A stretch of DNA of 64,000 nucleotides. Source: Phycisphaerales bacterium (GTDB lineage: Bacteria > Planctomycetota > Phycisphaerae > Phycisphaerales > SM1A02). The stretch is taken from positions 186,001 through 250,000 of the forward strand of contig JAJDDB010000009.1 of NCBI GenBank assembly GCA_029260575.1, given 5' to 3'. The translations under genes were made by a program, and so were the position numbers. Shown piece after piece: positions 9,888 to 47,400 of this stretch; position 1 is the stretch's first letter; each line of letters begins with the position of its first letter. The notes beneath the pieces are model-generated. The model worked only from the letters and a program-made list of their open reading frames with translations, was not told where the DNA came from and ran no database searches.

Positions 9888-9932
9888 AGTGCGAGAAGTC
9901 TGACAGTGAAGTCTCTTTATGAAGAGTGAAGC

Positions 9933-10400
9933 GTGCAAATAGTCAATCTTTTTCTAGGGCTGAATCTTCTATTGTGTGCAGTGCCTGCTGTAGTAGCACT
10001 GCTCATTCGTCGCTGGTGGATGGGAATTTTGATCCTTGTGTGTGGACTCGCTGGTCTGATTCTTGGATTTGCTGCGGTCTGGGCAAGTATGGCGATTGCC
10101 TCATCGCAAAGTGGAATCAGCAATGGAGATGCCGGCGTCCTGTTTGTGTGCTCTTTGCCGATCGGAACCTTCAGTGGTGTGGTGATCGGAGGAGCTTGGG
10201 GTTACATTCTGGATGAACGCCGCAAACCGCGATTTGAAGATCATTCCTATTGCCCGGATTGTGGCAATGCAATGCGCGGCCTGACACGGCTTGGCTGTCC
10301 GAAGTGTGGGTGGAAACGCAACTGCCCGCAATGCGGCTACTCCTTGCGCGGATTGATGCAAACCGGTTGCCCTGAGTGCGGCTGGAAGCGGAGCGGCTGA
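9933..10400 (+). CDS. Membrane protein with double C-terminal zinc ribbon
   Basis: 155 aa from a GTG start. Three hydrophobic segments (residues about 3-24, 27-50 and 65-85) are followed by a basic linker and two tandem ribbons: CPDCGNAMRGL...CPKCG and CPQCGYSLRGL...CPECG. The C-P-x-C-G-x-x-x-R-G-L pattern is widespread in planctomycete membrane proteins of unknown role; the same ribbon, single and N-terminal, occurs in three tandem genes at 39655-41579. Eight cysteines should bind two Zn ions on the cytoplasmic face. The last gene before the respiratory block, with no obvious partner. Confidence 0.75.
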   Translation: MQIVNLFLGLNLLLCAVPAVVALLIRRWWMGILILVCGLAGLILGFAAVWASMAIASSQSGISNGDAGVLFVCSLPIGTFSGVVIGGAWGYILDERRKPRFEDHSYCPDCGNAMRGLTRLGCPKCGWKRNCPQCGYSLRGLMQTGCPECGWKRSG

Positions 10401-35979: not shown

Positions 35980-37209
35980 TCAGTGTCGCCGCAGCCGCAG
36001 AAACAGCGCTGCATATTGTTCCAGCACCCGGGCGGTACTGTATTCGCGCTGCGCCTGTTCTCGTGCAGCATCGCCGTGGCTCTTGCGGATCGTGTCGTGC
36101 TGCAGATAGGCCAGCCAGGCGTCCGCTGCCTCGGCGGGCGTCGGGTTGATGAATTTTCCGGTCTGGTCATCTGTGATCAGATCTTCGCAGCCGGAGATTC
36201 GAGTCACAATCGAGGGCAAACCGCTGGCCATCGCTTCCACGACTGCTGCAGGCATACCCTCATTTGCTGATGGTAGCGCGAAGACATCTGCCGCCCGGTA
36301 CAACGGTGCAGGATCTTCATGAAAGCCTGCCCATATGATCCGGTCGGTGATATTCAATGCCGCCGCTCGATCGCGCATCTCCGCCATGAACGTCGCATCG
36401 GTCGACGGCCCGGCTATGGCAGCCTGGCAGTCATGTCCCGCTGCCGCTGCTGCACCGACCGCTTCGAGAAGAAGATTCGGCCGCTTGCGCCTGCCGAGGC
36501 GCCCGACAAACAGCAAAGTCGGTCGATCCGCCCAGCCAAGTTCGCGTCGCACTGCGGACCTTTCCTGCGCATCCCGCGCCGGTCGAAATCGATCAACATC
36601 CACAGCCATCGGAATCCGAAGAATCTGATTGTCTGCGATACCGCATTCGCGCAGCTCCCGGGCAATCGCGGAACTCATTGCAATGATGCCGCTGCACTGC
36701 GCTGCCATGCGCCGGCGTTTGCGGGCAAGGCCGAGCATTCGCTGCAGGCGGGCTGTGTCCTGAAGATCAATCTGGTGGTTGGCAAGAAAAACCACTGCAG
36801 GCAGGCCGAGCTGTTCTGCACACGCTGCAGGCTGCACAGTTGAAACGAATCCTGTCAAGCCATGGAAGACGTCAAACGCGTCGTGCCTGTCGCGCAGAAA
36901 ACTGTCTGCGGCCTTGAGAAACCGCTTTGTCATGCGCCAACGTGACAACGGCGGGTCGTCGTGGTTCGGCAGCGGTCCCAGAAAGTGCTGGCCAGCAAAA
37001 AGGTCAAACTGTTGTTGTTCAGGCAGGCCATGGACCAGCGTAATTTCGAACTGTCCGGGTGCAGCGGCGCTGTAGAGACGATAGTGAAACGACCCGGGGC
37101 CGTAGTATTGCGTGCCGGCCCCACGCGGCGACCACAACAGCACCCGCAGCGGTCGAGTTGCCTCAGATGATGGATCGGGAATCGGCACGGTCAGCCACGA
37201 TATCGACAT
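35980..37209 (-). CDS. Glycosyltransferase family 4
   Basis: 409 aa GT-B enzyme. N-terminal Rossmann part (RVLLWSPRGAGTQYYGPG), a central LLFVGRLGRRKRPNLLLEAVG, and the donor-binding signature LPSANEGMPAAVVEAMASGLPSIVT near residue 320. Transfers a sugar from a nucleotide sugar to a lipid- or glycan-linked acceptor. First gene of a leftward GT4-sulfotransferase-sulfotransferase set, so a sulfated exopolysaccharide or glycoconjugate is the likely product. Start chosen at MSISWLTVPIP; 46 upstream codons overlap the divergent pgl gene and are poor. Confidence 0.88.
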   Translation of the reverse strand: MSISWLTVPIPDPSSEATRPLRVLLWSPRGAGTQYYGPGSFHYRLYSAAAPGQFEITLVHGLPEQQQFDLFAGQHFLGPLPNHDDPPLSRWRMTKRFLKAADSFLRDRHDAFDVFHGLTGFVSTVQPAACAEQLGLPAVVFLANHQIDLQDTARLQRMLGLARKRRRMAAQCSGIIAMSSAIARELRECGIADNQILRIPMAVDVDRFRPARDAQERSAVRRELGWADRPTLLFVGRLGRRKRPNLLLEAVGAAAAAGHDCQAAIAGPSTDATFMAEMRDRAAALNITDRIIWAGFHEDPAPLYRAADVFALPSANEGMPAAVVEAMASGLPSIVTRISGCEDLITDDQTGKFINPTPAEAADAWLAYLQHDTIRKSHGDAAREQAQREYSTARVLEQYAALFLRLRRH

Positions 37210-37282
37210 TTCGCCGACGCTCGCAAACGCAACTTTCACAACACCGCTGGTCACATTCGCCACACCGTGCAATGATGCTCTC

Positions 37283-38125
37283 ATGGACGCCACAGGCGAT
37301 ACGACACCCAGCCGCGAGACGTACCCTGTCATTGAAGACCAACTCACGCCGCCGGCGTTGCCCGGAACGGTCGTTGTGCTCGAAACTGCAGATGAAGTGA
37401 TCGATCGCGTTGCCGGCGATCTGGTCGCCCATGCTGAACAATGCGTGCGCGATCACGAGGAATTTCACATTGCACTTTCAGGTGGCAGTACACCTGAACC
37501 GCTGTATCGCCGGCTGATGTACGACCCGGACTTTCGACGCCTGCCCTGGCGGCGTACGCATTTGTGGATAGTCGACGAGCGCTGCGTCGAGCTCGATGAT
37601 GAATTGAGCAATTACAAAATGATCCGCGAGACGCTGGTGGAGCACGCTGATATTCCGCCTGAACAAGTACACCCGATCGCAGCGACTGATCCTGATGCGG
37701 ATGTCGCTTATGAGCGCGGCTTCAAACAAGCCATGTTGTACAGGCCGGCCGGTGAAGACCGCCTCGATTATGTTCTGCTCGGATTGGGCTCAGACGGCCA
37801 CACCGCCAGCCTGTTTCCCGGCAGCAGCGCCCTGGCCGAACCGCATCGACTGGTGCGACGTGTGCATCATGAACCGGTCCAGCCACCTGATCGCATCACG
37901 ATGACATTCAACCTGCTCAACGCAGCGCGCATGATCGGAGTGCTTGTCACCGGCACCAGCAAAGCCGCAACGATTCAGCAGATCGCAACCGGCAGCGACC
38001 CAGTCGAGGTCCTGCCGATCAGGGGAATAGCGCCACACAACGGCGAGTTGCTATGGTACCTCGATGCAGCAGCAGCGGGGCAATCCCGCGAGGAGCCGCC
38101 ATGTGCCCAGACATCAAAAGTGTGA
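37283..38125 (+). CDS. pgl: 6-phosphogluconolactonase
   Basis: 280 aa. Second step of the oxidative pentose phosphate pathway: hydrolysis of 6-phosphogluconolactone. DevB-type signatures: FHIALSGGSTPEPLYRRL, HLWIVDERCV, and GLGSDGHTASLFPGS (residues about 63, 90 and 163). The N-terminal ~30 residues are an extension. Start at MDATGD (the frame is open 57 codons further upstream, antisense to the GT4 5' end). No zwf or gnd nearby. Overlaps the DUF1569 gene by 25 nt. It is the only central-metabolism gene of this block. Confidence 0.93.
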   Translation: MDATGDTTPSRETYPVIEDQLTPPALPGTVVVLETADEVIDRVAGDLVAHAEQCVRDHEEFHIALSGGSTPEPLYRRLMYDPDFRRLPWRRTHLWIVDERCVELDDELSNYKMIRETLVEHADIPPEQVHPIAATDPDADVAYERGFKQAMLYRPAGEDRLDYVLLGLGSDGHTASLFPGSSALAEPHRLVRRVHHEPVQPPDRITMTFNLLNAARMIGVLVTGTSKAATIQQIATGSDPVEVLPIRGIAPHNGELLWYLDAAAAGQSREEPPCAQTSKV

Positions 38126-38583
38126 CCGATCGTCGTTCGCTGCAATTCAAGACCCTGCAGGACATTGGTGCTGATGTCGCAGCACTTGATCAGGCTGGCG
38201 CGCAGCGCGCCGCCGGCAACTGGACGCCGGCGCAGAACGTCGAACACATTGCCATGTTCATTCAGTATTCGCTGGACGGCTTCCCATTCAGGATGCCGTT
38301 AGCATTGCGGCTGATCGGGCCGATGTTCCGTAAGACGGTAACGACGAAACCGATGAAACCGGGCATCAAGGCTCCGGGGAAAATCAGAGCTTTCGAGCCC
38401 AAGCCGGATGTACGCTGGGGCGACGCGGTGCAGAGACTGCACACACTTGTCAGCCGCGTGGCTGGCGGCGAAACCATGCAGATGCCCAGCCCGCTGTTCG
38501 GCAGGATGTCACACGAGGACTGGACCAACCTGCACTGCCGGCACGCAGAAATGCACCTGAGTTTCATCCACCCCCAACAATGA
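38101..38583 (+). CDS. DUF1569 (DinB-like) protein
   Basis: 160 aa, four-helix DinB/YfiT-like fold expected. The motif NWTPAQNVEHIAMFIQYSLDGFP has the first metal His, and the end HCRHAEMHLSFIHP holds two or three more, as in DUF1569 (many planctomycetes). Possibly a thiol-dependent transferase; function unknown. The N-terminus MCPDIKSVTDRRSLQF is family-like. Translationally coupled: the ATG lies 25 nt inside the pgl gene. Ends 44 nt before a GC-rich hairpin. Confidence 0.85.
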   Translation: MCPDIKSVTDRRSLQFKTLQDIGADVAALDQAGAQRAAGNWTPAQNVEHIAMFIQYSLDGFPFRMPLALRLIGPMFRKTVTTKPMKPGIKAPGKIRAFEPKPDVRWGDAVQRLHTLVSRVAGGETMQMPSPLFGRMSHEDWTNLHCRHAEMHLSFIHPQQ

Positions 38584-38626
38584 TGCCGGTCTCAGGCACA
38601 AGCAGTAACCGACGCCTCCCCCAAAG

Positions 38627-38648
38627 CCCGGCATCTCCCGATGCCGGG
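38627..38648. terminator. GC hairpin between convergent genes
   Basis: Perfect 9-bp stem CCCGGCATC/GATGCCGGG with a 4-nt loop. A second, weaker arm pair, ATGCCG...CGGCAT, follows within 45 nt. No T-tract on either side, so a bidirectional but non-classical terminator is inferred. Confidence 0.45.
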
Positions 38649-38707
38649 ATCAACCAATGCCGGGGTCTCCCGATATCGGCATCAACCGTCCAATGCCAAG
38701 ACGCTTC

Positions 38708-39226
38708 TCAACCCTCAACCAAGATCGCCAACGTCTGCTGCAATGCACGCATTTCTTCATCTGTTGCATCAATTGCCAGTTCAAGTGGGAACATGAACAG
38801 CACCTGATCCGCATCCATGTTGATGAAGCTGCTGATCGCAGCTTTGCGCGCGTTCATCAGCGTGATCCGCCACGTACCGCGCTGCCCGGCCAGACGTGCA
38901 CGGCGAATCGGCTTGATGCGTACATCATCAAACATAGCCCAGCCGGCATCCTGCGATCGTCCGCTGGGGCGCACAACCGTCACACCACCCCATTCAATGC
39001 GCAGCTGAATCGCTTCGCTCCAGAGAATATTATCCGGCGCGAGAATGCGCACCACACCGAGCGCCAAACCAGTCTGCACCGCTGCAATGGTTGCCACATC
39101 CGAACCCGTTGAGATCGTGCAGATCAGCGCGATAGTGAAACCCACGATGATGAACATCGGCCGCCTGCCGCTGAGCAGTCGACTGCTGTACGTCACATGT
39201 GCGGGTTGGGTCGATTCATGAATCAC
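38708..39226 (-). CDS. Small membrane protein downstream of ruvX
   Basis: 172 aa of unknown function from a GTG start that overlaps the end of ruvX by 11 nt. A basic segment (YSSRLLSGRRP) precedes one or two helices (MFIIVGFTIALICTIST, VATIAAVQTGLALGVVRIL) and a soluble beta-like part (IEWGGVTVVRPSGRSQDAGWAMFDDVRIKP) with an acidic helical C-terminus. An alternative start in the longer frame would be inside ruvX and is not supported. It is probably a planctomycete-specific protein; no domain recognised. Confidence 0.65.
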   Translation of the reverse strand: MIHESTQPAHVTYSSRLLSGRRPMFIIVGFTIALICTISTGSDVATIAAVQTGLALGVVRILAPDNILWSEAIQLRIEWGGVTVVRPSGRSQDAGWAMFDDVRIKPIRRARLAGQRGTWRITLMNARKAAISSFINMDADQVLFMFPLELAIDATDEEMRALQQTLAILVEG

Positions 39227-39626
39227 GTTCGAGATAGTCCCGAAGTATCTGCGCAGCTGCGAGGGCGTCACGCCGCCGCGCTTTTTGCTGATGCGTCCGT
39301 CCCGAGCGGGCCATCTGTTGATCCGCCTGGAAACTCGTGAGCCGTTCGTCCTGATAATACACCGCAAGGCCAGTGCGCCGATGCAATTCTTCGCCGAATG
39401 CTTGCACATCCTTGGCCGGCTGCCCTTCCGTGCTGTCCATATTCAAAGGCAATCCAAGTACGACAGCGTCCGGCTCATGTTCGCGGAGCGCAGCTGCGAT
39501 TTCATCATGCAAGAGATCGCGGTGCGGTTGCTCAATGATGTGCAGCGGGCTGACGATCTTCGTGACATCATCGCCGACCGCCAGGCCGGTGCGCTTGCCG
39601 CCGAGATCAATCGCAAGATACCGCAC
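39216..39626 (-). CDS. ruvX: Putative pre-16S rRNA nuclease / Holliday junction resolvase-like RuvX (YqgF)
   Basis: 136 aa, standard length. RNase H-like fold with the first Asp in the opening strand YLAIDLGGKRTGLAVGD, the conserved VVLGLPLNMD, and the terminal DERLTS and RRDALAAAQILRDYL. YqgF proteins mature the 5' end of 16S rRNA and act in transcription or recombination. Start taken at GTG (VRYLAIDLGG); upstream codons of the longer frame look like the tail of the neighbouring zinc-ribbon gene in another frame. It overlaps the next gene. Confidence 0.93.
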   Translation of the reverse strand: MRYLAIDLGGKRTGLAVGDDVTKIVSPLHIIEQPHRDLLHDEIAAALREHEPDAVVLGLPLNMDSTEGQPAKDVQAFGEELHRRTGLAVYYQDERLTSFQADQQMARSGRTHQQKARRRDALAAAQILRDYLERDS

Positions 39627-39654
39627 GTGCAGCAAGTGTATCCGCTCCCAACAG

Positions 39655-40290
39655 CTACGCCGTCTTCGAAGTCTTCGAATCAATGCCCAGTTGAATGTGC
39701 TGCACAATCTGCTCTGCCTCTACGGGTCGGCACCGTACTTCAAACTCTCGCTCCGATACCAAGCCCAGTATGCGAACCGCGCCGATGCGAATGCCGCAGC
39801 CACCCGGAACTCGACGTCGATTGACTGTATAGAGCGTCGAAATCGGCCAGCGCTTGATCACGACGCTGCCGCTGTCTGACTCCTTGACAACCCGAACCTC
39901 GTCATCTTCGATTGACAGTCGCCACGGCCAGGTGTTGCCAATCAACACTCGCCGACCAATCCGATACGCCGGCACACTTGCAAGATACGTGACGATTACT
40001 GTGGCAAGCGCCACCGGCGCCATGACATCAGCCGAGAGCTGCGGCAACAAAGGAAACTGCGTCCGCAGGAAGTCGTATGTCAGAATCCAGGTGAGATTCA
40101 CGACCATGTAGATAAAAAAACCGATGGCGAACGCTCGGACGACAACTCCCCGCCGCGCTGGAAACGCCACGCCGCGCACATCAATCCACACACCACATTC
40201 CGGACAGCGCGCAGCTTCTGCGCAGCCGCGCAGGTCGTACTCACAATCCAGACAATGCAGTGGACGCATCTGTTCACGCAATCCTATCAC
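39655..40290 (-). CDS. Zinc-ribbon/two-TM protein, third of a tandem trio
   Basis: 211 aa. N-terminal ribbon CLDCEYDLRG...CPECG, a basic stretch, two membrane helices (AFAIGFFIYMVVNLTWIL and APVALATVIVTYLASVPAY) and a C-terminal beta-rich domain (WRLSIEDDEVRVVKES...VVIKRWPI...REFEVRCRPVEAEQIVQHIQ). The C-terminal part parallels the two upstream proteins at W/F-E-x-x-C followed by A..I..; it looks like a PH-type fold. Starts right after the previous stop (TGA-GTG). Function unknown; three paralogues in a row suggest a hetero-oligomer. Confidence 0.75.
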   Translation of the reverse strand: MIGLREQMRPLHCLDCEYDLRGCAEAARCPECGVWIDVRGVAFPARRGVVVRAFAIGFFIYMVVNLTWILTYDFLRTQFPLLPQLSADVMAPVALATVIVTYLASVPAYRIGRRVLIGNTWPWRLSIEDDEVRVVKESDSGSVVIKRWPISTLYTVNRRRVPGGCGIRIGAVRILGLVSEREFEVRCRPVEAEQIVQHIQLGIDSKTSKTA

Positions 40291-40929
40291 TCACGAATCA
40301 ACCGGATTCCACTTGGCCCGCCAACAGGCATGCCGAAACCAATTCAGTTGCTCCACAATGTGATGCGCATATGTGTACGAACAATCGAGTTCGAACCATC
40401 GCTTCATCGGAAACCGCCTGCTGTAGAGACCAATGATCACCCTTCTTCCACGCCCCGACTGCAACATGATCGGCTGCAAATCCGTCCACAGAAACCAGAA
40501 ACTGGCATCGGTATCTCCAGAAACATCGCCGGTCGCATTGTCATCCGGTAGCGATTCAATCCGACACCCATCGTTGTGTGCAGTAAACAACAAATCCCAA
40601 ACTTTGCCGAGTTGTCTGTCGCGCTTGCGGTGAACAGATCGAGCGTGAAGCATTGTTACGAGAATGGAAACAGTCGTAATCGAAAACAGCAGCACGAGAG
40701 CAGCAGTGTCTCCGACAGAATGCGCGATGCCCATGACTAGTACTGCGGACGGTACCGCAACCACGACCGCAACTCCGAAGATGTGCATGTAGTTCGGCTC
40801 AGGATGCTGCCGCGCGCGAATTGCGATGTCAGGCATCTCAACCAGCTTGCCGCATTCCGGACAACAACGCGATGTGTCATCGAGCCCGTGCAGGACATAC
40901 TTGCACGTTGGACACCATGGCGGCTTCAC
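40291..40929 (-). CDS. Zinc-ribbon/two-TM protein, second of a tandem trio
   Basis: 212 aa. N-terminal ribbon CPTCKYVLHGL...CPECGKL, then two helices (IFGVAVVVAVPSAVLVMGIAHSV and ALVLLFSITTVSILVTML), and a C-terminal domain ending RVIIGLYSRRFPMKRWFELDCSYTY and AHHIVEQLNWFRHA. W-(F/Y)-ELDCS is shared with the preceding gene. Its ATG overlaps the stop of that gene by ATGA; the next gene begins immediately after its own stop. Confidence 0.75.
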   Translation of the reverse strand: MKPPWCPTCKYVLHGLDDTSRCCPECGKLVEMPDIAIRARQHPEPNYMHIFGVAVVVAVPSAVLVMGIAHSVGDTAALVLLFSITTVSILVTMLHARSVHRKRDRQLGKVWDLLFTAHNDGCRIESLPDDNATGDVSGDTDASFWFLWTDLQPIMLQSGRGRRVIIGLYSRRFPMKRWFELDCSYTYAHHIVEQLNWFRHACWRAKWNPVDS

Positions 40930-41579
40930 GACTCATCCGTCTGTTGCTGCTTCGGGGCATCGCCCCACACAATTCGATTCATCCGCTCACCAATCGCACG
41001 CTTGACCTGTAACGCCTGCTGATGCGAACAGTCCAGTTCATACCACGACTTTGACACGAACAGTCCGAACATGCCGGTTTCACCAAACTGCAGACTCGGT
41101 GAACCTGATGGCGATCGGGACACCATCACGCGCGGGATAAATCGCCACGGCATATGCTCCACCTCCTTGCCCGAGCGTGTATCTACAACGTGCAACCCGT
41201 CGCCGGCAATCTGAAACTCCAACGGCCAGTCAGAGCGCATGCGATGCCGGAATATCACGCGCCCGGCCAGCACCAGCGCGATGAACATCCCCACCGAACC
41301 GATCAGCATCGGTCGCCACCAGTTCTCCTCATACAGATGATGGTCTTCACCGAGCAGCGGCATCAGCGCCGCAAACAGCGCGGTGAGAATCACGATCGAC
41401 AAGACCACGCCGATGACAAGCACCGGCAGCGTCGACCGGAATCCATATCGATCCCGCGCGCGAAAGATGTGACACCCATCAGAAAGATCAAACGTCAAGC
41501 CGCATTCAGGGCAACTGTCATGCACTGTTGCGCCGCGCAGGTCATAACTGCAATCAGGACATCGCGCTGGAAAAACCAT
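40926..41579 (-). CDS. Zinc-ribbon/two-TM protein, first of a tandem trio
   Basis: 217 aa. N-terminal ribbon CPDCSYDLRG...CPECGLTFD, a charged stretch, two helices (LPVLVIGVVLSIVILTALFAALMPLL and MLIGSVGMFIALVLAGRVIF) and a C-terminal domain (LEFQIAGDGLHVVDTRSG...FVSKSWYELDCSHQQALQVKRAIGE). The start MVFPARCPDC is chosen since a TACTAT box lies about 25 nt upstream, inside the longer frame. Probably a novel membrane module; no transport or enzyme motif seen. Confidence 0.75.
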   Translation of the reverse strand: MVFPARCPDCSYDLRGATVHDSCPECGLTFDLSDGCHIFRARDRYGFRSTLPVLVIGVVLSIVILTALFAALMPLLGEDHHLYEENWWRPMLIGSVGMFIALVLAGRVIFRHRMRSDWPLEFQIAGDGLHVVDTRSGKEVEHMPWRFIPRVMVSRSPSGSPSLQFGETGMFGLFVSKSWYELDCSHQQALQVKRAIGERMNRIVWGDAPKQQQTDES

Positions 41580-41657
41580 GTGCAGTCTCACATACAGCCG
41601 GTACGTATCACAAAGATAGTAGCACGCTGGACGTGTCATCCACTGAAACGGTCGATG

Positions 41658-42737
41658 TCACTGCAGCTTCTCATCCACCAGCGAAGCCAATTGCTTGACC
41701 TTCTGCGCTTGCTCCCACGAACACACCAGCGTTGCATCTGCAGTGTGCACGATGATTAGATCGCTGCAGCCAACAGTCGCAATTGTGTGACCGGAGTCAT
41801 CCGAAACCACAGTTACATTGCTCGAATCAATATGCAGATTCATCGCGTTCGCGCGATTGCCCTGCGCATCCGCTGCAAGTGTCTCCGCATAGCTCGTCCA
41901 GCTTCCGACATCCAGCCAGCGCACATCGAGATTGATCGTGCAGATATCAATTCGCGGGTCGGCGCTCGCCGGGTTCATCACACCATGATCCACGCTGATC
42001 TTCGGCAGGTTGGGATACACTTCATTCAGCACCGCCTGCCGCTGCGGTGTATCCCACGCATCGCCGATGCGCATCAATCCGTCGTATGCCTCCGATTTGA
42101 ACCATTTCACCGCATCAAGAAACATCGCAGCTGGAAACACGAACATCCCGCTGTTGAAGTTGATTGCCGGGTCGTTGTGAAACCGCTCCGCCTCATCCGG
42201 GCCGGGTTTTTCCTTGAATTGCTGCGCGCGGTATACGCCGCCCGCTTCGTCAATCGCTGCCCCGCGCGTCACCCATCCATACTGCGTTGCCGGAAACGAA
42301 CTCTTGATGGAATACGTCAGAAACCTGCTGCGATCCTGTTCAACAACCTCCAGCCCGATGCGCAGCTTCTCGCGGATGACATCCACCGGCTCGATGAGAT
42401 GGTCGCTTGTTAACACACAAAACACCGCATCGGGATCGCGCCCCGCAAGCACCGCAGCCGTCAGACCGACCGCATTGAGCGTATCGCGCCCCGTCGGCTC
42501 GCCGAGGATGTGTTCATCATCAAACTGCGGCAGCGCAGCACGAATCGGCGCACGATGCGCTTCGCCGGTGCAGATGTACTGCTGGCTTAGCGGAACGACG
42601 CCGTCCAGTCGTTCAACAGCCAGTTCCAGCAGTGACCGGCCTTCAATAAACGGAAGTAACTGCTTCGGCTTTGCTTTGCGGCTCATCGGCCACAACCGTG
42701 TTCCCGCACCACCCGCCATGATCATTGCGTAACGCAT
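41658..42737 (-). CDS. manC: Mannose-1-phosphate guanylyltransferase
   Basis: 359 aa. Makes GDP-mannose from mannose-1-phosphate and GTP. Pyrophosphorylase signature MIMAGGAGTRLWPMSRKAKPKQLLPF, then CVLTSDHLIEP, GYFKEKPGPDEA-type sequence (FKEKPGPDEAERF), and SVDHGVMNPA. It lacks the C-terminal isomerase cupin of bifunctional AlgA types, so it is the monofunctional type. Start at the ATG 6 nt past a TACAGT box; the GTG two codons earlier would sit directly against that box. Supplies activated mannose for glycans, perhaps those of the GT4 and GT39 enzymes. Confidence 0.94.
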   Translation of the reverse strand: MRYAMIMAGGAGTRLWPMSRKAKPKQLLPFIEGRSLLELAVERLDGVVPLSQQYICTGEAHRAPIRAALPQFDDEHILGEPTGRDTLNAVGLTAAVLAGRDPDAVFCVLTSDHLIEPVDVIREKLRIGLEVVEQDRSRFLTYSIKSSFPATQYGWVTRGAAIDEAGGVYRAQQFKEKPGPDEAERFHNDPAINFNSGMFVFPAAMFLDAVKWFKSEAYDGLMRIGDAWDTPQRQAVLNEVYPNLPKISVDHGVMNPASADPRIDICTINLDVRWLDVGSWTSYAETLAADAQGNRANAMNLHIDSSNVTVVSDDSGHTIATVGCSDLIIVHTADATLVCSWEQAQKVKQLASLVDEKLQ

Positions 42738-42743
42738 CGCCAC

Positions 42744-42749
42744 ACTGTA
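42744..42749 (-). promoter_or_regulatory. -10 box TACAGT, leaderless start of manC
   Basis: Minus-strand TACAGT is 6 nt before the ATG. No clear -35. Confidence 0.4.
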
Positions 42750-42873
42750 GTTGAAAACGCCGAAACGCTGAAACGTCTATATGCGAATAGCCCCCGGCTT
42801 GTCGGGCGTTTGTCGCTTGTTCAGACATAACTGTGGGTGCAAAGAAACCCAGGGTAAATCCGGGGCACTGTAT

Positions 42874-43497
42874 TCAGTTTCCGCCGCGAATCCGATACGC
42901 CGTCTCCACCACAGCGTCAGCCGTCGCCAACTCCGGCTCCGCCGCAATCGCCGCGTTCACCATCTGCGTCGCATCAGCCCGTGATTCACCCAGCATCGAC
43001 AGCACCGCAATCGCATCGCGCGCCACATTCACGCCGCCGGCTGCGGGTTTGAGTTCGATGTCTGTTCCGCTGGTGAACTTGTCCACCTTGCCGTTGAGCT
43101 GCGCGATGATCGTCTCTGCGGTGCGCTTGCCGATCTCCGGCAGCGAAACCAGCAGATCCGCATCACGCGTGGCAATGGCAGCAGCAATCCGCGTGATCGG
43201 CAGCTCAAGAGCACGCAGCGCCTTGCGCGTGCCGACACCCTTCACCGTTGTAAACAACTCAAAGAATGAACGATCAGCCGGCGTTCGAAATCCCACCAGC
43301 CGGGGAATTGATGATGAACCCTGCCCATGCACTTCGTGATAGTGCAGCGTGTGGAATGTCACATCCCGGCCGACATCCGTATTCAAAGCCTGTACATCAC
43401 CAGCCGGCACGAGCAATTCATACACGATCGGCGGACATTCCAGTTCCACACGTCCTGGGTGTACTGCTGCGAGCCGGCCTTGAATTCGCGTGATCAT
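42874..43497 (-). CDS. ruvA: Holliday junction branch migration protein RuvA
   Basis: 207 aa, typical. Tetrameric DNA-binding partner of RuvB. N-terminal OB-fold (MITRIQGRLAAVHPGRVELEC), helix-hairpin-helix repeats with VKGVGTRKALRAL and LPEIGKRTAETII, and a C-terminal RuvB-contacting domain (DAIAVLSMLGESRADATQMVNAAIA). Neither ruvB nor ruvC lies in the window, while ruvX is 3 kb away. A TAGCAT box ends 7 nt before the ATG. Confidence 0.96.
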   Translation of the reverse strand: MITRIQGRLAAVHPGRVELECPPIVYELLVPAGDVQALNTDVGRDVTFHTLHYHEVHGQGSSSIPRLVGFRTPADRSFFELFTTVKGVGTRKALRALELPITRIAAAIATRDADLLVSLPEIGKRTAETIIAQLNGKVDKFTSGTDIELKPAAGGVNVARDAIAVLSMLGESRADATQMVNAAIAAEPELATADAVVETAYRIRGGN

Positions 43498-43504
43498 GCT
43501 GCCG

Positions 43505-43510
43505 ATGCTA
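43505..43510 (-). promoter_or_regulatory. -10 box TAGCAT, leaderless start of ruvA
   Basis: Minus-strand TAGCAT is 7 nt before the ATG, too close for a ribosome site, so the mRNA should be leaderless. -35 unclear. Confidence 0.4.
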
Positions 43511-43544
43511 TCGGCCGAACCGCGCTCTTGACGTCAACCGTCAA

Positions 43545-44354
43545 TCAGTCCGTTGCTGGCACCGCTGCGTGCGGCGTGGCGATCTCTGCTGCAGCACCAT
43601 TCACAGAACCATCCGCCAGTCGCGGCACAGCCGGTCCGTCCTTGATCGGCCACCCGCTGACTTCCGCAATCTTTGCCCGAAGCGTTTCGGTAATCGCCTT
43701 GGCATCGCGCTGCCCCGCAAAATCAAACACCCCCAAATACTGCACCCGCGCATGGCTCGGCGTCATCAGACTCTTGTTCATATCGTTCGTGTCCGGCGTT
43801 CCCGAAACCCACACCAGCAGCACCGGTGCTTTGGATCGCGCGATGATCAGGCCGACACCCGCAAAGAACGGCCAGAGCTGCCGCGGCGGCGTGACGATAC
43901 CGCCTTCGGGGAAGATGCCGATCACCGCGCCGGCTTTGAGTTCACGCACAGCCAGACGCGCCGAAGCTGTGTCAGTACCATCACGGGCGACCGGAATCAC
44001 GCCGGTGTATTCAAGAAACGGCGTAAGTGTCGGCGTGTACATGTCCTCCGCCATCATCCACCGAATCGCAAACGGACACCCGCCGGAAATCAGCATCGGA
44101 TCAACCGCCCCGGTGTGATTGGAAACCACCAGCAGCGGCCCAGCCATGTTGGATGTCGGTACATGTTCCTGCCCGATGTAACGAACGCGATGCACCAGTC
44201 GAATGAATAGGTACATGCATTTCCAGATGATGACGTAGCCCGGCACGCCGCCCGGACCCTGCCGAAGCCACGGCAGGACAATCCAGTGCCACACCGCCAT
44301 GGCCGTCAGCCAGGCAAAAATCGCAACTCCAAACCATCGCAACGTGTCCGGCAT
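43545..44354 (-). CDS. plsC: 1-acyl-glycerol-3-phosphate acyltransferase (PlsC family)
   Basis: 269 aa. Phospholipid synthesis: acylates lysophosphatidate. Acyltransferase block I NHTGAVD (His-x4-Asp), block III-like FPEGGIVTP, and a pocket motif [13 protein letters not shown]. One or two N-terminal helices ([22 protein letters not shown]) anchor it to the inner membrane. Start at MPDTLRWFG with GGGAGG 10 nt upstream; longer starts at 44408 or 44423 are possible. Alternatively another glycerolipid acyltransferase. Divergent from carB. Confidence 0.85.
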
Positions 44355-44472
44355 TCGCGAAAAACCTCCCGGTTCGTCCACAAGTCTGCCTGTGGCGCGA
44401 TTCATCATTGAGTCGCCCCACACGCGTGGCTACAGTGTCAGCAGGTCGCAAAGCGCGTCCCCGAAACCGGCC

Positions 44473-47400
44473 ATGCCCCGTCGCGACGACCTGCACACCA
44501 TTCTGATCCTTGGTTCCGGCCCGATTGTCATCGGCCAAGGCTGTGAGTTTGATTACTCCGGAACCCAGGCTTGCAGCGCTCTGCGAGAAGAAGGCTATCG
44601 CGTCGTGCTCGTCAACTCCAATCCTGCGACGATCATGACCGATCCGCAGTTCAGTGATCGGACCTATCTGGAGCCGATCACACCCCAAGCCGTCCGAAAA
44701 GTCATCGAACGCGAGAAAGCCGCAGGTTCGCCGATCGATGCGCTGCTGCCGACGCTCGGCGGCCAGACAGCGTTGAACTGCGCCTGCGCCTTGCACGATG
44801 ATGGCACCCTTGCGGACCACGACATCGAACTTATCGGCGCTAATCGGCAGGTGATCTACCGCGCTGAAGACCGTCAGGAATTCAGGCAGGTCATTGACAG
44901 CATCGGCCTGCATATGCCGCGGGCGGAATCCGTCAGCAACGTTGAAGACGCTCTGACGTTTCTCGATGAAATCGGTCTGCCCGCAATCATTCGCCCGGCG
45001 TTCACGCTCGGCGGCACCGGTGGCGGCATTGCCTACAACCGCGAAGAGTTCGAAGAAATCGTGCGCCGCGGCATCGACGCTTCCATGATCAATCAGGTGC
45101 AGATCGATCAGTCTGTGCTCGGCTGGAAGGAATACGAGCTCGAAGTCATCCGCGATCACGCAGACAACTGCATCGTTATCTGCGGAATTGAAAACATCGA
45201 CGCTATGGGCGTGCATACCGGCGATTCCATCACCGTCGCGCCGATCATGACCCTTACCGACAAGGAATACGAAAACCTCCGCGATGCTTCGTTTGCGGTG
45301 CTGCGTGCGGTCGGCGTCGAGACCGGCGGCGCAAATGTCCAGTTCGCAATCAATCCCGCCACCGGCGAGATGGTCGTCGTGGAAATGAACCCGCGCGTTT
45401 CACGCAGCTCTGCGCTCGCCTCCAAAGCCACCGGGTTTCCCATCGCCCGTATCGCTGCCAAACTCGCCATCGGCTACACGCTCGATGAGTTGGGCAACGA
45501 CATCACCGGCAGCACCAGCGCGTGCTTCGAGCCGGCCATTGACTACGTCGTTGTGAAAATGCCGCGCTGGACGTTCGAGAAATTCCCCGAAGCTGATGAA
45601 ACACTGACCACGCAGATGAAAAGCGTTGGCGAAGCGATGTCCATCGGCAGAACATTCAAAGAAGCGCTGCAAAAAGCCATCCGTTCGATGGAGGTCAAAC
45701 GCTTCGGCTTCGGCCTCGACAAGAACGATGACTGGTTGACAGCCCATCGAGCCGGCTCGTCCCAGAGCCGATCGACGCCCGAAGTGTCGAACACCAATCC
45801 GGCCGAGGACGCCCCTGCTCGCGACGATAACGAATACCCCATCCCCGATGAAAAACTCCGCCGCAAACTTTCCGTACCCAGCCAGGGCCGGCTGTACTAC
45901 ATCCGCTACGCGCTGAAGATGGGTATGACGGCAAAGCGCATCTGCGAACTCACCGGCATCGATCCGTGGTTCATCGACCAACTCGCGCAGCTTGTCGAAT
46001 TCGAAGATGTGCTGTGCAAATCCAAACGCCTCGAAGATGTCCCGCGCGATGTGTTGTTACAAGCAAAGCAACTCGGCTACAGCGATCCGCAGCTCGCATA
46101 CCTCTATCTCGGCGACATCACGACCGACACGATTCTCGCAGTACGATCCCATCGAAAGAGCCTTGGTATCGAACCGGTGTACAAACTGGTTGACACATGC
46201 GCCGCGGAGTTCGAAGCTGCAACGCCATACTTTTATTCGACGTACGAATCGGCATACCACGACCCACAGCAAGCCGGCTCGTCCCCGGCTCACTCCTGTG
46301 TTGCTGACGAAATCCGCATCACCGATCGCCCCAAAATCGTCATCCTCGGCGGCGGTCCGAATCGCATCGGACAGGGCATCGAGTTCGATTACTGCTGCTG
46401 TCAGGCTGCGTACGCTGCTCGCAAGATGGGTTTCGAGTCGGTGATGATCAACTCTAACCCCGAAACAGTCTCCACCGATTACGACACCAGTGACCTGCTG
46501 TTCTTCGATCCGCTGACGCTGGAAGACACGCTCAACATCATCGAACGGCTCAATGGCGGCGGCATCGACATCACCGATCGGCCGGGCACTGTCTGCGGCG
46601 TCATCGTGCAGTTCGGCGGCCAGACGCCTCTGAATCTCGCGCACGGTCTTGTCGCAGCCGGCGTCCCACTCATCGGCACAAGTCTTGAGTCCATCGATCT
46701 CGCAGAAGACCGCGATCAGTTCAAGCAGGTGCTCGACGAATTACAACTTAAACAGCCCGACAGCGGCATCGCATATTCCCTTGATGAAGCAACCGCCATT
46801 GCCCGGCGCATCGGCTACCCGGTATTGGTGCGCCCCAGTTATGTGCTTGGCGGGCGCGGCATGGAAACGTGCTACACACCCGAAGCTCTTCGGCGGTATA
46901 TGCAAAATGCAGTCGATGTCTCCGAACTCGCTAACGCACCGATTCTGATCGACAAGTTCCTGCCCGAAGCCACCGAAGTCGATGTCGATGTCGTTGCGGA
47001 TTTTCTGCCCGATCGCGCAACCACGAGCTCGCAGATACAACAACCTGATGATGAACCCCGCGCAATCATCTGCGGTGTGATGGAACACATCGAAGAAGCA
47101 GGCGTACACTCCGGCGACAGCTCCTGCACGCTTCCTGCATTCTCCCTGCAGCCCGCCCTCGTGCAGCGCATCGAACAACAGGCCCGGGCATTAGCAAAAC
47201 GCTTAAAAGTCCGCGGCCTCATGAACGTGCAGATGGCGGTCAAGAACGATGAAATCTACATCCTCGAAGTGAACCCCCGCGCCTCGCGCACCGTGCCTTT
47301 CGTCGCCAAAGCGACCGGCGTGGCGTGGTCGCGCCTCGCTGCAATGGTCATGATGGGCGCATCGCTGCACCAACTTGATGCACACGAAGTCACCGACACC

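Follow-up and report, generated by a model that had tools for sequence, protein, structure and literature searches.

Three adjacent minus-strand genes of a planctomycete genome, P1, P2 and P3, are, as judged from their sequences, locally duplicated paralogues. Each encodes an N-terminal four-cysteine ribbon, a predicted transmembrane (TM) hairpin and a C-terminal domain that, in P1 and P2, has moderate support as PH-type (PH/PTB/FERM-F3) from structure models of low confidence. The ribbon does not set this trio apart: it is a module of the whole order Phycisphaerales, carried by dozens of other membrane proteins. This order-wide expansion is more surprising than the trio itself. The anatomy of the trio is well supported, its open frames, paralogy, motif and genome context being directly observed. 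As to function, our leading candidate, to which we give somewhat less than an even chance, is that P1-P3 are coupled, membrane-anchored scaffold or adaptor subunits of PH type, with a docking ribbon and an envelope-related task.

The source genome (G000; 4.1 Mb, 41 contigs, 95.3% complete) was studied through a window of 64,000 nucleotides on contig C9, the whole stretch of DNA analysed, to which the coordinates refer. Positions 39655-41579 (minus strand) are filled exactly by three intact, tightly packed open reading frames. P1 (40926..41579, 217 residues) has its ribbon at residues 7-26 (C4 ribbon at 41484..41570), its TM hairpin at about 47-116 and the predicted PH-like domain at about 118-206. 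In P2 (40291..40929, 212 residues, GTG start), the ribbon occupies residues 6-26 (C4 ribbon at 40834..40923), the hairpin about 47-108 and the predicted PH-like domain about 111-207. P3 (39655..40269, 204 residues from ATG 40269) carries a ribbon (40177..40263), a TM hairpin and, by homology to P1, a probable PH-like domain. The P1 stop and the P2 GTG start overlap as GTGA. The P2 stop is separated by 21 nt from ATG 40269, which has an AGGA 12 nt before it and is most likely the start of P3; GTG 40290 is a possible alternative. Upstream of the trio lies a gene for a manC-like mannose-1-phosphate guanylyltransferase (41658..42743, minus strand). The downstream flank is ruvX (39216..39626, minus strand), with GTG 39626 as the likely and TTG 39635 as a possible start; if GTG 39626 is used, ruvX begins 28 nt past the end of P3. 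Open reading frame length alone is not decisive here, shuffles of the region reaching 233 codons (mean 119). GC3 of P1-P3 is 0.59-0.66 and GC by codon position resembles that of neighbouring genes. The ribbons and tails common to all three, which outweigh length as evidence, argue that P1-P3 are real genes.

In each protein the ribbon reads C-x2-C-x-Y-x-L-x-G-(x6-7)-CPECG; two hydrophobic segments come next, and the tail comprises about 100 residues. Full-length Smith-Waterman scores are above chance for all pairs (z of 20.6 for P1-P3, 13.8 for P2-P3 and 13.3 for P1-P2). Those of the C-terminal parts have z of 7.4, 3.6 and 6.6, respectively, and 500 shuffles attained them 0, 3 and 0 times; stripping the ribbon leaves z of 4.2-7.9. 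Frames, motifs and z values thus bear out the adjacent minus-strand trio of shared ribbon/two-TM/C-terminal architecture put forward in the original prediction, and its C-terminal domains, which might have proved unrelated, are related to each other in sequence. The copies are 26-29% identical to one another; as a search match, P3 shows 31% identity to P1 with an E value of 7e-11. Kept in all three are the four ribbon cysteines, the Tyr, Leu and Gly between them and CPECG and, beyond the ribbon, a Trp where the tail begins, an Asp, another Trp, and the Glu and Cys of the last strand. The proposed tail motif (W/F)-(Y/F)-E-(L/V)-x-C(S/R) holds in P1 (WYELDCS) and P2 (WFELDCS), but its first position is not always W/F, P3 having EFEVRCR. 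P4 (38708..39157, minus strand), a hydrophobic hairpin with a tail of about 100 residues and no ribbon, was considered as a fourth copy and rejected, with z against P1-P3 of only -0.5 to 0.7.

Models of P1 and P2 were computed with ColabFold on the three-sequence alignment (mean pLDDT of 60.0 and 63.1, respectively). The PH-type superfold is a barrel of about seven strands that a C-terminal helix caps. Both models contain a strand (residues 36-44 in P1, 35-42 in P2) and two long helices, then several strands in a row and a helix at the C-terminus. Foldseek searches with P1 gave PTB domains as best matches (E 1.8e-3, probability 1.00; none at E <=0.001), and 49 of the 50 rows listed are, by our own reading, of PTB/FERM/PH type with probabilities of 0.85-1.00. 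The P2 result was mixed, with a best E of 0.093 and, by the same reading, 38 of the 50 rows listed of PH type and 12 not. In VIA-align, all 50 rows listed for P1 and all 50 for P2 were read by us as PH/PTB/FERM-F3. The best were 9pvg_C for P1 (Z 7.9, rmsd 3.7, 91 aligned) and 3tvv_B for P2 (Z 8.4, rmsd 2.7, 92 aligned); VIA-align candidates are Foldseek's own, and agreement with Z below 8 can reflect no more than a common arrangement. Because one fold fills the VIA-align lists of both models, a PH-type fold is favoured, and the earlier guess of a PH-like fold gains low-confidence support from the P1 and P2 models. The absence of bPH_2, DUF2244 and YcxB structures among the fold matches listed is uninformative. 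In most rows the aligned range, of which only the end points were considered, begins around residue 30-35, ahead of the TM hairpin; the models suggest that the first strand of the PH barrel may precede the hairpin.

The 15 residues after TM2 carry a net charge of +2 to +3 and the 15 before it -4 to 0. Since the charge is positive after TM2 and not before it, the tail is predicted to lie inside and, with two helices, the N-terminus would lie inside too. Ahead of TM1 the net charge is 0, -1 and -1, which adds nothing to this prediction. Overall, P1-P3 are predicted to form a TM hairpin with both ribbon and tail in the cytoplasm. The C4 pattern CxxC-x12-13-CPECG, a sequence feature only, occurs in all three copies, and the ribbon may bind zinc.

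None of the three proteins matched a curated Pfam or NCBIfam family over its cut-off. The best sub-threshold matches of the trio had E values of 0.017 (Pfam), 0.042 (NCBIfam) and 0.035 (PHROGs), and PADLOC gave no match to it up to E 1. Against Pfam and NCBIfam zinc-ribbon families, the ribbon reached about 10-14 bits, compared with cut-offs of at least 25 bits. A profile search of PDB sequences to E 10 gave seven matches, the best of them via the ribbon (zinc fingers; E. coli YfgJ at E 0.012); a Keap1 match in the tail, at E 1.1, was taken as chance. No description of the ribbon family was found in the open-licence literature, among the matches listed. With bPH_2/DUF304 (PF03703), P1-P3 gave no match at E up to 1, and the four genomic matches of this family, to E 0.1, all lie at other loci. 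Two other loci matched DUF2244 (PF10003) below cut-off in a search of the genome to E 10, with none at the trio; in a relative, L121 matched this family weakly (E 0.022, below cut-off). YcxB (PF14317), a family similar to the bacterial PHb membrane families, found nothing in the genome up to E 1.

The trio resembles bPH_2/DUF304, DUF1200 and DUF2244 in its TM-anchored intracellular PH-type domain, which is predicted in the trio, and DUF2244 is described with two N-terminal TM helices (PMC2817789). It differs from PHb families in its N-terminal ribbon and in the lack of an HMM match to PF03703, PF10003 or PF14317. In addition, a strand precedes TM1 in the trio models, whereas PMC2817789 describes membrane PHb families as seemingly without strand 1. 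Intracellular PHb domains on TM proteins have been proposed there to oligomerise as membrane transporters or pores (PMC2817789). DdE and DdF of the enterocin DD14 system are likewise encoded by adjacent genes, are membrane PH-domain proteins and are needed for peptide export (PMC8657885, PMC7332713); the bacteriocin is no longer exported once one or the other of two PH-domain proteins has been deleted (PMC8657885). They are annotated as bPH2/YdbT and PH-domain proteins and, unlike for the trio, no ribbon is mentioned in the accessible parts of these papers. Llmg_0524 and Llmg_0526 of Lactococcus lactis, with the enterocin proteins the nearest experimental precedents found, resemble the trio in being encoded by a single operon, in an N-terminal motif of two CX2C pairs and in TM helices (two and one). 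Their cytoplasmic N-terminal CX2CX10CX2C binds zinc, and one of the two is linked to cell-wall integrity (PMC4628341). This comparison, made by description, crosses phyla; the spacer is x10 against x12-13 in the trio, and the available text of PMC4628341 reports no PH-type tail, unlike the tail predicted here.

In our leading candidate role, the TM hairpin would anchor each of P1-P3 in the inner membrane, with the ribbon and the PH-type domain of each protein facing the cytoplasm. Translational coupling would presumably lead to the three proteins being made in coupled amounts, and their PH-type domains may assemble side by side at the membrane as homo- or hetero-oligomers. The ribbon would offer a zinc-stabilised docking surface to a protein partner. 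The proteins, probably non-enzymatic, would serve an envelope task such as integrity, export or peptide tolerance, and would work in the manner of bacterial 2TM-PH families and of the Lactococcus zinc membrane proteins. The docking step is disfavoured by the L. lactis case, where the authors take the zinc module as a fold stabiliser (PMC4628341).

A search with P1 of its own genome, to E 10, yielded 44 places, nearly all via the ribbon. A ribbon profile, built on 34 aligned of 40 distinct ribbons from the window and from stretches of the same genome, was then used at E 1e-6. Across 61 sampled Phycisphaerales genomes it gave 0-96 matches per genome, with at least one in 53; high counts are lower bounds, 136 candidates having been scored in candidate-rich genomes. 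All eight genomes without a match belong to family f5, which has nine genomes in the sample. The highest counts found, at least 81-96 matches each, come from three genomes of family f4 (G039, G043 and G055). In the phylum sample, at E 0.01, 35 of 199 genomes match; of these, eight are Phycisphaerales and the remaining 27 show a single match or two apiece (best E 3.2e-5), with a profile that was built from G000 and so favours near relatives.

The Phycisphaerales CxxCxYxL..CPECG proteins carry the same ribbon as the trio, mostly beside TM helices and often in tandem. Among 97 sampled ribbons (37 from the same genome, the trio left out, and 60 from 40 chosen stretches), 61 stand before TM segments, 31 after them and 5 without a detected TM segment, the hydrophobicity scan being crude and liable to hide some. 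A soluble tail of at least 60 residues follows the last TM segment in 5 of these 97, and none, by eye, combines two TM segments with a PH-like tail. Inspection by eye did show this architecture in G003, G012 and G014, at the ruvX locus, and also in L121 and L124. Two of the five tails stand out: at L027:1071-2849 (minus strand), the ribbon belongs to a TM protein whose repeats look ankyrin-like by eye, and at L146:805-1422 (minus strand), in another genome, it precedes a TM and a pseudopilin-like segment, again by eye. A small open reading frame of the window (9930-10400, plus strand) ends in two tandem ribbons (CPDCGNAMRG..CPKCG and CPQCGYSLRG..CPECG). A second tandem trio in the same genome (L022:1843-3440, plus strand) joins the ribbon to three TM segments, without a long tail.

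Such abundance raises the alternative that activity resides in the ribbon, as a docking or nucleic-acid handle that many membrane proteins, unrelated in other respects, share for meeting one cytoplasmic partner, with the trio as one class of client. It is consistent with the at least 55 matches of the ribbon profile in G000 and at least 96 in one genome of the order, mostly beside TM helices. The Glu of CPECG and the Tyr are, moreover, each kept in 135 of 140 ribbons, in a scan that fixed only the cysteines and Y/F/W/H/N at the Tyr position. The loci were, however, fetched by ribbon similarity, which biases the conservation, and the conserved residues may only serve to fold the tiny ribbon. 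We consider this alternative unlikely. A related conjecture, which we regard as rather unlikely, is that the Phycisphaerales ribbon is a common cytoplasmic handle on the N- or C-terminus of dozens of unrelated membrane proteins with a shared partner. The trio would then be the PH branch, its barrel interrupted by the TM hairpin after strand 1.

The site of the trio was compared between genomes. RuvX was found in 36 of 37 genomes, ours included, and wider neighbourhoods were compared for 34 of the 35 ruvX-bearing relatives (G041, whose match lies at a contig end, was left out). In 22 of these 34, manC and ruvX are at most 300 bp apart, in 21 of them on the same strand. The gap is larger in G014, G038 and G050, being filled by other genes, by eye, in the last two, and manC was not found in the neighbourhood stretch of nine. 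The order of the chain g44101-g43545-ruvA-manC-ruvX-pgl (window 37112-45216) is kept in 13 of the 34. Ribbon-TM genes adjoin ruvX in three of the 34 relatives and in none of the other 31; ribbon genes further from ruvX occur in stretches L088, L102 and L104. In G014, three genes of ribbon-2TM-tail-2TM-tail plan lie between manC and ruvX (L072:1811-5568, minus strand), of which two closely duplicate each other (z 36-52); a further gene, of ribbon-TM-tail plan, lies beyond ruvX. In G012 and G003, a single open frame beyond ruvX reads 2TM-tail-ribbon-2TM-tail (L073:6415-7590 and L075:5355-6677, both minus strand) and represents either fused genes or two in-frame genes. P4 is orthologous to the N-terminal half of these frames (z 17-32), in which a ribbon-2TM-tail half continues the P4-like half without leaving the open frame; P4 in the window has the first half alone.

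Homology of the trio to the G014 proteins, to the ribbon halves of G012 and G003 or to L124 was rejected, ribbon-stripped z being at most 3.0. Profile-profile comparison with the G012/G003 and G014 sets (tiny alignments; L124 not included) gave probabilities below 2%. Given these values, shared ancestry beyond the ribbon is not demonstrated. One outlier, P1 against the N-terminal half of G003, has z of 8.8 both ways; with the orthologous half from G012 the value is 1.1, which makes hydrophobic composition a possible explanation. By sequence, the G014 array at the trio's position looks independent, and modules built to one common plan seem to be gained, doubled and lost at the manC-ruvX spot.

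The hetero-trimer of the original prediction would, in its strict form, be an obligate complex with one subunit each of P1, P2 and P3. The overlapping or close-set genes and the ribbons retained in three diverged copies fit such a complex, as do the two or three tandem ribbon genes common in this genome. Among 48 pooled ribbon positions, some of them weak (E values reaching 0.7), 22 have a same-strand neighbour within 2 kb and form nine clusters, the trio being one; random placement of 48 positions gave a mean of 1.1 clustered and a maximum of 9 in 5000 trials. However, the ruvX side is variable, with no ribbon gene in 31 of the 34 relatives, a double-module frame in G003 and G012, and three double-module genes plus a single one in G014. 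Tandem duplication with drift would account for the packing equally well, and we judge an obligate hetero-trimer unlikely.

Neutral drift of a tandemly duplicated small membrane-protein gene would agree with the low identity between the copies and with their distribution. At E 0.001, a C-terminal profile made from P1-P3 found only its own three loci among 151 family genomes; with three sequences it is insensitive and may miss distant copies. Searched against 61 genomes at E 1e-8, P1 matched its own genome only. The L124 protein matched 5 of 294 phylum genomes, in short N-terminal pieces that take in the ribbon and extend no further than the TM hairpin. The trio genes are therefore not scattered among relatives, as they might have been; with the C-terminal profile they were not found at all in 150 other family genomes. 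Because this profile matches its own genome only, co-occurrence of the trio across planctomycetes is not demonstrable, and because the trio was not found in relatives, it would serve no conserved core function. Neutral drift is nevertheless quite improbable in our view, given that all three frames are open and that all ribbon cysteines, two Trp and the last-strand Cys are kept.

A role with the neighbours, either RuvA/RuvX in DNA repair or ManC in supplying GDP-mannose for polysaccharide, is suggested by direct adjacency on the same strand but is very improbable, since no more than 300 bp separate manC from ruvX in 22 of 34 relatives, where both do without the trio; the trio looks like a lineage-specific insert.

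The strand before TM1 of the trio, if real, would suggest an answer to the "missing first strand" of the membrane PHb families described in PMC2817789. P1-P3 themselves match no curated Pfam or NCBIfam family above cut-off. Planctomycetes have unusual cell envelopes, which makes the dozens of ribbon-tailed membrane proteins of Phycisphaerales a concrete and testable entry point.
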